Below, one piece after another: positions 3,742-31,196 of a DNA stretch of 39,015 nucleotides. Below the pieces are notes generated by a model. The model saw only the letters and a list, made by a program, of their open reading frames with translations, searched no databases and was not told where the DNA came from. The DNA comes from Victivallales bacterium (GTDB lineage Bacteria; Verrucomicrobiota; Lentisphaeria; Victivallales; Victivallaceae). Made by a program: the position numbers and the translations under genes. How positions within the stretch are numbered: position 1 is the first letter of the stretch; each line of letters starts with the position of its first letter. The stretch covers positions 1 to 39,015 of the forward strand of contig JAISIP010000150.1 in NCBI GenBank assembly GCA_031261965.1, written 5' to 3'.

Positions 3742-5856
3742 TTATTCACCCATTTCTTTCAGTGCCGCCTTGCGCGAGAGACTAATCTTGCCGTTGGCGG
3801 GGTCAATGTCCAGAACTTTCACCGAGACGTAATCGCCCTCGTTGCAAATATCAGTCACTTTGTTGACCCGGTAATCCGCCAACGCCGAGATATGCAGCAA
3901 TCCTTCCACGCCCGGAAGAATTTCGACGAAAGCACCGAAATCACGCACCGTCACGACTTTGCCGCGATAGATTTTACCGATCTCCGGCTCGGCGGTACAA
4001 CCCAAAATCCGCAATTTTGCAGCTTCGAGATGTTCGCGGTCGGAAGCCATGATCTTGACCGAGCCGTCTTCTTCGATGTCGATCGAAGTGCCGGTTTCTT
4101 CGGTAATCGCCCGGATATTCTTGCCTCCGGGACCGATCAACGCGCCGATTTTATCCGGATTGATCTTAACGACTTCGAGGCGCGGGGCACGAGGCGAAAT
4201 ATCCGCACGCGGAGCGGCGATACAGCCTTCCATCACATCGAGAATCTTCATTCTGGCGATGCGGTTGCGTTCCATGCCTTCGCAGAGCAGATCAATCGGA
4301 ATGCCCGGCAACTTCAAGTCGAGCTGGAACCCGGTAATTCCGTCGCGGGTGCCGCACACCTTGAAGTCCATGTCGCCAAAGTGATCTTCTGCACCGATAA
4401 TATCAGTGAGCAGCAATCTTTTGCCGTCTTTGCCGGTCACTAAACCGCAGCTGATTCCGGCAACCGGCGCGACAATCGGCACGCCGGCGTCCATCAACGC
4501 GAGCGTCGCACCGCAGACCGATGCCATTGAGGTCGAACCGTTGGAACTCATAATCTCCGAGACGCAACGGACAACGTAGGGGAAATCCGCCGGAACAACT
4601 TTGGCGACTGACCGTTCCGCCAGGTTGCCGTGACCGATTTCGCGCCGACCCGGTCCGGCGATCCGCCCGACTTCGCCGACGCTGAAGTTCGGGAAGTTGT
4701 AGTGCAAATAGAAACGCTTTTTGACAATTCCGCTTTCACTGGTGAGATCATCGGACTCTTGCGCGTCCTTTTCATTGCCGAGAGTTGCCAGCACCAGCGC
4801 CTGAGTCTCGCCACGTGAAAACAACGCGCTGCCGTGAACCACCGGCAACACCCCGACTTCGGCCGAAAGCGGGCGAATATCAAAGGTGGAGCGGCCGTCG
4901 GGACGGAACTGTTTCTCTAAAATCACGTTGCGGGTAGTTTCGCAAACTAAATTGTCAAACCCGATCGCGGTCATAAATCCGTAATCCGCATCGCTCATAT
5001 CGGCGAATTCACCGCGCAAACTTTCGCGGACACGGCAACGCAACTCATCGAGCGCGACCATGCGATCCTCTTTGCCCGGAATCGTGCAAACGCTTTCGAT
5101 ACTATCCGCGCAGAATTTTTGCATCGCGCTTGAGAGAGCTTCCGGCACGAGGAAGAGCTTGTACTCTTTTTTGGCGCGTCCGGCGCGTTTTGCCAACTCG
5201 ATTTGGGCATCGCACTGCTTTTTGACCGCCTCATTGGCGAGGTACATAGCTTCTTTCATCTGAGCTTCGGAGACGAAATCGGCTTCACCCTCGATCATAA
5301 TAACTTGATCGGGGCGACCGGAGTAGATAAGTTCAAGCCGGCTTTTAGCCATCTCTTCGCGGGTCGGGTTAACGATAAATTTATCGTTAACCAAGGCGAT
5401 ACGCACCGCTCCGATCGGACCGTCGAACGGCAGATCGGAAAGCATAAGAGATGCGGACGCTCCGACCATTGCCAAGACATCCGGCTCGTTCACTCCGTCG
5501 GCGGAGAGCAACGTACAGGAGACTTGCACTTCGTGGAAGAACCCTTCCGGGAAGAGCGGACGGATCGGCCGATCGATCATGCGGCAAGTCAAGATTTCCT
5601 TAGTGGACGGGCGACCTTCGCGCTTGATATAACCGCCGGGAAATTTGCCCGCTGCGGAGTATTTTTCGCGATAATCTACCTGAAGCGGAAAGAAGTCCGT
5701 GCCTTCGCGCGGAGTGCCGGAGCAAGCCGCCACCAGGACGATAGTGTCGCCGAGGCGGACGAGGCAGGAGCCGTTGGCGAGCCCGGCGACTTTGCCGGTG
5801 GAGATTTCCATTTCGCGCTCGCCGTCAAATTGGAATACGATTTTTTCTTCAGCCAT
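3742..5856 (-). CDS. pnp: Polyribonucleotide nucleotidyltransferase (PNPase)
   Basis: MAEEKIVFQFDGEREMEISTGKVA...; RNase PH repeats, KH (IGPGGKNIRAITEETG) and S1 (GKVVTVRDFGAFVEILPGVEGLLHIS) domains. Confidence 0.97.
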   Translation of the reverse strand: MAEEKIVFQFDGEREMEISTGKVAGLANGSCLVRLGDTIVLVAACSGTPREGTDFFPLQVDYREKYSAAGKFPGGYIKREGRPSTKEILTCRMIDRPIRPLFPEGFFHEVQVSCTLLSADGVNEPDVLAMVGASASLMLSDLPFDGPIGAVRIALVNDKFIVNPTREEMAKSRLELIYSGRPDQVIMIEGEADFVSEAQMKEAMYLANEAVKKQCDAQIELAKRAGRAKKEYKLFLVPEALSSAMQKFCADSIESVCTIPGKEDRMVALDELRCRVRESLRGEFADMSDADYGFMTAIGFDNLVCETTRNVILEKQFRPDGRSTFDIRPLSAEVGVLPVVHGSALFSRGETQALVLATLGNEKDAQESDDLTSESGIVKKRFYLHYNFPNFSVGEVGRIAGPGRREIGHGNLAERSVAKVVPADFPYVVRCVSEIMSSNGSTSMASVCGATLALMDAGVPIVAPVAGISCGLVTGKDGKRLLLTDIIGAEDHFGDMDFKVCGTRDGITGFQLDLKLPGIPIDLLCEGMERNRIARMKILDVMEGCIAAPRADISPRAPRLEVVKINPDKIGALIGPGGKNIRAITEETGTSIDIEEDGSVKIMASDREHLEAAKLRILGCTAEPEIGKIYRGKVVTVRDFGAFVEILPGVEGLLHISALADYRVNKVTDICNEGDYVSVKVLDIDPANGKISLSRKAALKEMGE

Positions 5857-5947
5857 GTTTAATTTCCTTTTCACATGTTTGAGGAAAGGCGTACTCCGAA
5901 CCATCTGAGTTAAGCATAGACCCAAAACTCTTCGACTCGCGGAATCC

Positions 5948-5988
5948 CGTTATCAGCTCCCAAATTCCTGTTTTGGACGCTGATAACG
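5948..5988 (-). promoter_or_regulatory. Stem-loop in pnp upstream region
   Basis: Perfect 10-bp inverted repeat CGTTATCAGC / GCTGATAACG with a 21-nt loop. Confidence 0.5.
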
Positions 5989-6045
5989 ACCGAATTCCAC
6001 AAAATCAAGCCGATGCCGGAGACCCTGTCCTCTTTTTGCAATATA

Positions 6046-6126
6046 GGGTATCTCTAAAAACTATGTTGAGTTAAAAATTGGCAGATTCGCAATTTTTAAC
6101 CAAGTTTCCAGTTTTTAGCGGTAGCC
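6046..6126 (-). mobile_element. Family 1 copy B, 81-bp internal-deletion derivative
   Basis: GGGTATCTCTAAAAACT...GTTGAGTTAAAAATTGGCAGATTCGCAATTTTTAACCAAGTTTCCAGTTTTTAGCGGTAGCC: both ends intact, central ~90 bp absent. Flanks TATA / TTTA. Confidence 0.85.
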
Positions 6127-6161: not shown

Positions 6162-6503
6162 TTAGAGCTTATCAACTAATAAACGAGAACGCTCTGACTT
6201 GCCCCGAAGAGCCATTCACTTGTCGAAAAAAACGTAAATATTTCTTCCAATATCCCCGATTTTTTTCAACTGCGCGACTGGTTGTCCGGTGCATCGTCAT
6301 AACATTTCCATTATTAGGGTATCTCTAAAAACTGGAAACTTGGCTAAAAATTGCATCTCGCATTCGTATGTACGACCTTGCGCACATCTGGTTAACTTCA
6401 TGTTAGCCAGATGCTTGCAAAATCGCGCTTCCAAATTGCGAATCCGGCAATTTTGTAACTCAAGGTGAGTTTTTAGAGATACCCATTAGTTGATAAGCTC
6501 TTA
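6162..6503. mobile_element. Older inverted-repeat element (family 3) interrupted by family 1 copy C
   Basis: AGAGCTTATCAACTAAT (6164-6180) is the exact reverse complement of ATTAGTTGATAAGCTCT (6485-6501). Removing copy C plus one ATTA extends the match to 19 bp. Possible TTA duplications at 6162-6164 and 6501-6503. Confidence 0.6.
6317..6484 (+). mobile_element. Family 1 copy C, full length (168 bp)
   Basis: GGGTATCTCTAAAAACT...AGTTTTTAGAGATACCC terminal inverted repeats; 4-bp direct repeat ATTA at 6313-6316 and 6485-6488. Confidence 0.92.
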
Positions 6504-6547: not shown

Positions 6548-7729
6548 TTACCGTAAAGTGCCTTGGTTGCCGAGGGAGCAATATAGCCGGAACAACTCCT
6601 CTTCTATCTGCGCAACGGGTATCTTGCGGATGCACTCATAGCTGTTTTCGCCGCTAAAACGACAGTTGAAGTTACACCCCGAGTATTGGCATGAACGGTT
6701 TACGACAATCGGCGGAGTAATTCCAAGCAGTTCCGATGCGCTGTCGGGGTAAGGCAAGAATATTCTCGGCTGTCCGCCGCCGACAACTGCGAGCGTCGGG
6801 ACTTTCGACATCGCTCCGATGTGAATGCCCCCGGTGTCATTCCCGACAATCATTGTCGCGTTAGCCAAGGTCGCGGCAAACTCAGTGATGTTTTGCTCCC
6901 CGGTTAAATCGTACTGGGGTGATCGGCAAGCCCGCAACAGAGTCGCTGATAGGGGCGACTCGTCGGCAGTACCGCAAACGACGATGCTAAAACCCCGGTC
7001 TTCTAATTTTTGGGCGAGTTCGCCGAAATTTTCCGGCGGATAAATTAGCTCTTTGCCTTTGCCGCTACCGGGCAAAAAGACCACATAAGGCGAGGCTTTG
7101 GAGAGTAACGGCGGTGTCGGAGAATGCGTTTTCCAGGGGTTTTCAATTCGGCTAAGTTCAGGGGCAAGATATTTTAGAAAAACCAAATTGCGAATCAATT
7201 CGTGCGTGTTCAATAGTTCGCCGGAATCGAGCAACTCAGTATAAATCCGATCCGAATAGCGCATCAAATGCGGTTGCAAATGGCGCGTTGTTGAGGCAAA
7301 CGCGACGCTTCGGGGTGCATCGGCGACCAGCGCGATCAGGTCTTCAACTAAAATTTCCCGATAAAACCGGGGCTGCAACAAAAGATCGAATTTTTGAGCC
7401 GCGACCCATTTTAATTTCCCTGAGCGATAATTGGAGTCGGCGAGAAATTTGTCGGGATCAAGCTCTTCATAAGAGTCAAAATCCAACGTCCGCGCCAGAT
7501 CCAGCCAAAGCGAACGCCCCAGCAACGTAAGCGTATAACGTTCTTTGGGGTAAATTTTGCGCAATCCCTTGGCAAACGGGGCGTAAAGCGCAAAGTCCCC
7601 GATCCGATCCAGACGGACGACCAAAATTCGTTCTTTATGTGCTTTTTCCACTCTGGGTCGGCGAAAAAAAGCACGCGATTTGTAATAGACAAAATCTCGA
7701 AACAACCCGATTTTATCTCTTAATTGCAT
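6548..7729 (-). CDS. Glycosyltransferase family 9 (heptosyltransferase-like)
   Basis: RILVVRLDRIGDFALYAPFAKGLRKIYP; VVFLPGSGKGKELIYPPENFGELAQKL; VGNDTGGIHIGAMSKVPTLAVVGGG. Confidence 0.88.
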   Translation of the reverse strand: MQLRDKIGLFRDFVYYKSRAFFRRPRVEKAHKERILVVRLDRIGDFALYAPFAKGLRKIYPKERYTLTLLGRSLWLDLARTLDFDSYEELDPDKFLADSNYRSGKLKWVAAQKFDLLLQPRFYREILVEDLIALVADAPRSVAFASTTRHLQPHLMRYSDRIYTELLDSGELLNTHELIRNLVFLKYLAPELSRIENPWKTHSPTPPLLSKASPYVVFLPGSGKGKELIYPPENFGELAQKLEDRGFSIVVCGTADESPLSATLLRACRSPQYDLTGEQNITEFAATLANATMIVGNDTGGIHIGAMSKVPTLAVVGGGQPRIFLPYPDSASELLGITPPIVVNRSCQYSGCNFNCRFSGENSYECIRKIPVAQIEEELFRLYCSLGNQGTLR

Positions 7730-19645: not shown

Positions 19646-19814
19646 GGCTACCTCTAAAAACTGGAAACGTGAATTGAAAATGGCATCTCGCTTTTGTATG
19701 AGCGGTCTTGCGCATATCCGGTTAACTCGTTTGTTAGCCAGATATTTGCAAAACTGCACCTCCAAATTGCGAATAGTGCTCATTTTCAATTCAAACCAGT
19801 TTTTATAGGTATCC
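19646..19814 (+). mobile_element. Family 1 copy F, full length (169 bp)
   Basis: GGCTACCTCTAAAAACTGG...CCAGTTTTTATAGGTATCC; 4-bp direct repeat TTAT at 19642-19645 and 19815-19818. Confidence 0.92.
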
Positions 19815-28071: not shown

Positions 28072-28239
28072 GGGTATCTCTAAAAACTCACGTTGTGTTG
28101 AAAATTAGCAGATTCATAATTTGGAGGTGCGATTTCGCAAATTCCTGGCTAACATAGAGTTAACCAGGCATGCGCAAGCAGTACGCATACGAATATGAGC
28201 TGCAATTTTCAACCAAGTTTCCAGTTTTTAGAGGTACCC
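28072..28239 (-). mobile_element. Family 1 copy G, full length (168 bp, reverse orientation)
   Basis: GGGTATCTCTAAAAACTCACGTTGTG...AACCAAGTTTCCAGTTTTTAGAGGTACCC; no exact target duplication (TAAT / TTTA). Confidence 0.9.
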
Positions 28240-29381: not shown

Positions 29382-31030
29382 GTGAATATCAGGTTATCGC
29401 CAGAAAATGGCGCCCGCAGTGTTTTGCCGATGTGGTCGGGCAAGAACATGTGGTGCGGACGCTGAAAAACGCGATTCGGCAGCAACGGACCGCTCATGCC
29501 TATTTGTTTGTCGGGCAGCGCGGAATCGGCAAAACCACATTGGCGCGTATTTTCGCCAAGGCGATGAATTGTCTTGACCCGCAAGACGGTGAGCCGTGTT
29601 GCAAATGCGCATCCTGTCTGGCGATCGCCGAAGAGAATAACTTAGATGTCGTTGAAATCGATGCCGCCAGCCGCAACACCGTCGGCGATATGCGTGAATT
29701 GGCAGAAGATGTTATGTATCAGCCGGTCACCGGTCGCTACAAGATTTATATTATCGATGAAGTGCATATGCTTTCGTCACAGGCGTGGAATGCGTTGCTT
29801 AAGACGGTCGAAGAACCTCCGGCGCATGTGAAATTCATCTTTGCCACGACTGAAGTGCACAAGGTGCTGAAAACCATTATATCGCGTTGCCAGCGTTTCG
29901 ATTTGCTGCCGATTCCGACTCGGCTGATAGCCGAACGGTTGCGGCTGATAGCCGATCGCGAGGGGGTGGCGATCAATGATGATGCGGTAAACGCGATTGC
30001 CCGCGCCGCCGAGGGCGGTATGCGAGACGCGCAATCGCTGTTAGACCAGATGATCGCATTTTTTGCCCAAGGCGACAGCAGCGCGATTACGGGCGAGCAA
30101 GTGTTGTCGCTGTTCGGGCTGACTGACCGTGGCGATCTTGACGCGATTTTGCTCTCAATGTTGCGCAATCAGCCGGGGGAAGTGGTAAAAGTAATCGCAA
30201 CTTTGGCGAAAAAAGGCAAAAATCTGGAAACTTTGTTCGATGATTTATTGGACGCATTAAGGGCGGTTCAACTTTGCGCGATTTTGCCTAATCCCGGCGA
30301 AGTTTTGAACGAAACTCCCGAAACAATTGAGCGTTGCGTCAAATTTGCAAAAATAGTGCGTCCTGATTCGCTTCAGATTTTGCTTGAGACGATTGCGCCG
30401 GTTGGGCGGGTGTTGCATGACGCACTCAATAAGCAGGTTTATCTGGAGACGATTTTACTTAAGGCGATGCGTGAAGCCCATGCGGTGCGTATCGATGATG
30501 TGTTGGCGCGTTTAAACCAGTTGCGTACGGCTGATGAACTTAAGTTCCTCGAATTATTGCCTCATGAAATCAAACTGGCGACTTCGGAAGTTGTGGTGAT
30601 TGAAGTTCCGAAAACGGCAGAGAGTTCGGAAGAACCTCCCCCGGAGGAGAACTCGATTGTGGAATCGGCAATCGCTCAAGACCCGATTCACGAAAAAAGC
30701 ACAGTTGATGTGAACGAAAATCCGACTGTAGAAGAACCGGCAGAGCCAATAGCTTTTGAGGAAGAGTCAGCAATAGTAGACTCCGACCCGGTAGTTGAAG
30801 AAGAAATCGCCCGACCTGCGCCGGAAGTCATTGCGCCGGAAATTTTGCCCGAAAACAACACTCCGGATCTAAGCCCGGAGTCGAAATCCGGTCGCCGCAA
30901 GCGGCATAGCGTGATAAACGACGACCCCAAAGCGACAACCGAAGCGTTGAAAAACCCCATTGTCCACGAAATTGTCGATTTGTTTGACGGCAACGTGGTA
31001 GATGTGCATCGTCCCGAAAAAGAGCGTTAG
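29378..31030 (+). CDS. dnaX: DNA polymerase III subunit gamma/tau
   Basis: [72 protein letters not shown]; zinc site CCKCASC. Confidence 0.95.
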
Positions 31031-31196
31031 GCTACCTCTAAAAACTGGAAGATTGGCTAAAAATCGCATCTCGTATTCGTATGTACGACCTTGCATGTAT
31101 CTGGTTAACTCTATGTTAGCCAGATACTTACAAAATCACACCTCCAAATTACGACTCTATCGATTTTTTAACTCAAGCCAGTTTTTAGAGATACCC
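31030..31196 (+). mobile_element. Family 1 copy E, full length (167 bp)
   Basis: GGCTACCTCTAAAAACTGG...AGTTTTTAGAGATACCC; 4-bp direct repeat GTTA at 31026-31029 and 31197-31200, overlapping the dnaX stop codon. Confidence 0.93.

Follow-up and report, generated by a model that had tools for sequence, protein, structure and literature searches.

A 164-bp miniature transposon split by a second miniature transposon upstream of pnp in a Victivallales genome

The nested element and its surroundings

The window, a stretch of 39,015 nucleotides from a Victivallales bacterium, carried a nested repeat at 6162-6503, between a heptosyltransferase-like gene (6548-7729, minus strand) and pnp (polynucleotide phosphorylase; minus strand, ATG at 5856). 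In the pnp direction, the element ended just before a promoter-like pair, CTTGTTTTT...TATATTATT, and the same pair was present upstream of pnp in congeners. Two 17-bp arms, AGAGCTTATCAACTAAT (6164-6180) and ATTAGTTGATAAGCTCT (6485-6501), flanked copy C, a member of a repeat family termed family 1, and were perfect complements, as a first-pass annotation made from the sequence had described. When copy C (6317-6484) and one ATTA were removed in silico, a 164-bp element of a second family, GAGCTTATCAACTAATAA...TTATTAGTTGATAAGCTC, was reconstituted, with 18-bp perfect terminal repeats (GAGCTTATCAACTAATAA) and a TTA on either border. The first-pass annotation was right that excision lengthens the repeat, but its figures of 19 bp for the repeat and 166 bp for the element were too high because one base (A/T) of the TTA duplication had been counted on each side. 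The features of the locus were as follows.

6162..6164, no strand: left TTA target duplication of family 2 (TTA/TAA on both sides in 28 of 32 scored copies)
6165..6182, plus: left terminal inverted repeat of family 2, GAGCTTATCAACTAATAA (window sequence; recurs genome-wide)
6183..6310, plus: interior of the family-2 MITE; intact copies fold as one long imperfect hairpin with the arms (intact copies, fold, pairs)
6311..6316, minus: TTATTA, inner part of the family-2 right terminal repeat, left of copy C
6313..6316, within the preceding TTATTA: ATTA, left copy of the 4-bp target duplication of copy C
6317..6484, no strand: copy C, 168-bp family-1 MITE with GGGTATCTCTAAAAACT ends, within the family-2 right terminal repeat (query 154, window 6317, is exactly where family-2 matches end)
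6485..6488, no strand: ATTA, right copy of the target duplication of copy C
6489..6500, minus: GTTGATAAGCTC, outer part of the family-2 right terminal repeat (window sequence)
6501..6503, no strand: right TTA target duplication of family 2

We read 6162-6503 as a 164-bp family-2 MITE that was later split by the 168-bp family-1 MITE copy C, with a probability of about 0.95. Both elements, both target duplications and intact copies of both families were observed directly. In this reading the family-2 MITE went in first, at a TTA lying upstream of the pnp promoter, and copy C entered an ATTA inside the family-2 right terminal repeat at a later time. Family 2 probably owes its movement to an IS5-family transposase that recognised GAGCTTATCAACTAATAA and acted in trans.

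Copies of the two families

The host draft genome comprised 2.38 Mb in 209 contigs and was 89% complete; copy counts rest on searches of this genome and of retrieved stretches. When 6164-6503 was used as the query, 79 matches were obtained. Many of these covered query positions 1-154 only and others covered copy C only, showing that the alignments broke exactly at the copy-C junction. This break in the alignments, together with the ATTA duplication, bore out the earlier claim that copy C had truly inserted. The 16-bp arm, with up to two mismatches, was found 72 times in the genome (39 + 33) as against 4 times (2 + 2) for the reversed control pattern, so chance is excluded for the arms. The arm matches were mostly inward-facing pairs about 164 bp apart. 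The search for uninterrupted repeat pairs proposed in the first-pass annotation thus recovered approximately 20 intact family-2 elements of 163-166 bp in the same genome, nearly identical in sequence. The median divergence of the intact copies from their consensus was 2.1%, and that of the window copy was 3.7%.

A 3-bp flanking duplication was seen in 29 of the 32 family-2 copies scored (21/23 in the host genome and 8/9 in relatives). The triplet was TAA in 15 copies, TTA in 13 and TTT in one, so that 28 of the 29 duplications were TTA or TAA. The copies thus bore out the TNA-type duplication that the first-pass annotation had put forward. Family 2 had no match in plasmids. Viral contigs (L229, L230) and a KSB1 genome (L100) contained the exact arm, but element sequence did not follow it there, and these matches looked like chance.

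The family-1 end pattern gave 436 genome matches and its reversed control gave none, indicating that family 1 is present in the order of 200 copies in the 2.4-Mb draft. Young copies were found along with copies diverged by about 15%, and the family was absent from all 60 related genomes searched. Further family-1 sequences were located in the window at 1-119, 19646-19814, 28072-28239 and 31030-31196. Among the distinct family-1 candidates in the retrieved stretches, 34 of 46 had a 4-bp flanking duplication, which was mostly AT-rich (TTTA, TTAA, ATTA and TTCA).

Class assignment and IS5-family relatives

The family-2 element is a MITE. It is too short for a transposase gene and is bounded by perfect terminal repeats, its target duplication has a fixed length of 3 bp, and similar copies are dispersed through the genome. 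Genomes of Victivallaceae and Victivallales carried the exact 18-mer GAGCTTATCAACTAATAA, that of Victivallis vadensis DSM 14823 among them, and family-2 homologues of 73-83% identity occurred within the same genus and family. The 18-bp ends were identical to sequence beside N- and C-terminal transposase parts in relatives. In two genomes (G095 and G079) the arm preceded a promoter-like stretch, GGAGGTAAAC and MATTRLRTWEITDEFWAKVE (transposase start). At the opposite IS end the arm was one base different, GAACTTATC..., and adjoined the C-terminus of a DDE transposase in a genome of the same genus (L163 in G005). This transposase matched NF033580 (IS5 family transposase) at 1.4e-28, just below the curated cut-off, and PF13586/PF01609 above the cut-off. 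Full-length cousin ISs of 897-907 bp (G026 and G058) had GAATATATCCCTAAATAA-type ends, 3-bp TTA/TAA duplications and two overlapping frames, the N- and C-termini being homologous (MAMNSWEVSDAFWSKVE...). The check for IS5-like elements proposed in the first-pass annotation thus turned up IS5-family transposase ends bearing the same repeat in relatives. A second, different transposase ORF abutted the IS5-type remnant in the same-genus genome (L163:82-1591), probably as an insertion into the parent-like IS.

Judged by its ends and its duplication, family 2 is an IS5-derived MITE. The MITE and the IS ends have only about 18-20 bp in common, and the case for a parent IS is therefore built on the repeat and on how long the duplication is. 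A complete IS with exactly GAGCTTATCAACTAATAA ends was found in no single contig, and short-read contigs stopped inside such elements. The host draft, 89% complete, yielded no matching transposase at E<=1e-20; the gene may be lost, unassembled or diverged. Several parent candidates in the host genome were rejected: a PF01609 candidate on C196 had unrelated ends (TACTACTGATGCACTAAA), those on C35 and C166 were fragments near family-1 copies without family-2 ends, and the informative contig ends carrying the arm proved to be MITE sequence.

The IS1031 group, which duplicates three target nucleotides (PMC2516522), and the IS427 subgroup of IS5 resemble the present system in their GAG/GAA ends, 3-bp TNA-type duplication, NF033580/PF13586-type DDE transposase and length of about 0.9 kb. 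Unlike full IS5 ISs, the window element is without a transposase. The cousin ISs have two overlapping frames where IS1031 elements have a single-ORF transposase, and in this they are more like IS427; the assignment is therefore made at the level of the IS5 family and not of a subgroup. A close parallel is a 140-bp MITE of the archaeon Methanosarcina acetivorans, with inverted repeats of 16 and direct repeats of 3, present in 24 copies and linked to the IS5-family element ISMma12 (PMC3852290). Both are short and gene-less, with repeats of about 16-18 bp, a 3-bp duplication, tens of copies and an IS5-family partner. However, the sequence and the host phylum differ, and the partner IS of family 2 was seen only in relatives.

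Our literature search found no description of small repeats in Victivallales. The family-2 element is newly documented, and IS5-derived MITEs as a kind were already known. Intact copies and duplications now document the insertion order, and a likely parent has been added to them, which would be of use in annotating Victivallales genomes and in dating events. The nested miniature transposons are a clean but ordinary case and leave the knowledge of transposition unchanged.

Nesting, folding and the pnp upstream region

Elements nested in this way are known as 'Russian dolls' in prokaryotic MITE pipelines (PMC3852290). The present case is alike in that one small element lies in another with both duplications legible; it differs in the reciprocal nesting of two MITE families and in the use of one terminal-repeat ATTA in two separate copies. 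The second of these copies, a separate family-2 element on contig C36 (L004), was also interrupted at this ATTA, by a family-1 derivative of 82 bp. This second composite could mean that family 2 with family 1 inside it reached the pnp site as one unit with copy C as a passenger, and a nested element might still move if its outer ends are intact, but we judge such a transfer quite unlikely. The inserts differed, that of the window being 168 bp with one ...CTCA end, whereas the 82-bp insert of C36 had ...CTGG on either side; the family-2 hosts differed at several bases, and all flanks differed. In a third nested case (C187, L005), family 1 lay in the opposite, left repeat of a family-2 copy at another target, TAAA. 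Two independent insertions at an AT-rich hotspot, one in the window and one in C36, are a simpler account than transfer of a composite.

The reverse order was found on C12 (L003:1501-1833), where family 2 with its TTA duplication lay inside a family-1 copy and its removal restored a 166-bp family-1 element. MITE families in this lineage can thus be both insert and target of one another. The first-pass annotation had called the split element older; because of this reciprocal nesting, that holds for which insertion came first at this locus and not for the families as wholes. The family-2 copy on C187 also held, in its right part, a palindromic element of a third family with CCTGAATCCGTGA ends (L005:1831-1996), and a chimera of family 2 and this third family was present on C47 (L046:1338-1517).

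An intact family-2 copy folded end to end into a single imperfect hairpin of 164 bp (-59.5 kcal/mol, z -9.1). For 42 pairs compared in 17 copies from several genomes, 97.7% of cells were paired, and two-sided changes occurred at 8 of the 42, exceeding all 500 shuffles; the Victivallis-group genomes compared for pairing were about 25% diverged. Since pairing was kept over the whole 164 bp with these two-sided changes, a structured role or copying through a hairpin intermediate may apply. Selection on the hairpin over its full length, whether as RNA or as single-stranded DNA, beyond the terminal repeats is a tentative and rather doubtful proposal, because the sequences are related, the events are few and arm-to-arm conversion would look identical. 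The fold, its preservation across Victivallales copies and the position directly upstream of a conserved promoter would also suit a palindrome belonging to the pnp upstream region, with a regulatory or structured-RNA role (a terminator or leader), in place of transposon ends. That reading is very improbable given that about 20 unrelated loci have identical elements with target duplications. The search for terminator-like sites found none, and no Rfam family matched. The search for an empty site identified congeners without the element upstream of pnp; this comparison was promoter-anchored and not base-exact because upstream gene order differs among congeners. Chance or an assembly artefact is extremely unlikely: the draft is fragmented and many contigs end in these repeats, but the nested element lies well within a contig of 39 kb, dozens of further copies of either family show clean junctions and duplications, and three further nested cases lie on other contigs.

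An internally deleted family-1 copy of 81 bp, in which a clear 4-bp duplication was not visible, was located at 6046-6126. It separates the conserved leader from the conserved -10-like box of pnp, which places a MITE insertion on each side of the pnp promoter. The leader itself contains CTTGATTTTGTGGAATTCGGTCGTTATCAGC...GCTGATAACGGGATTCCGCGAGTC (5935-6035, minus strand), which is hairpin-like, gave no Rfam match and is strongly conserved ahead of pnp in eight genomes of the genus; it is possibly a cis-regulatory RNA.
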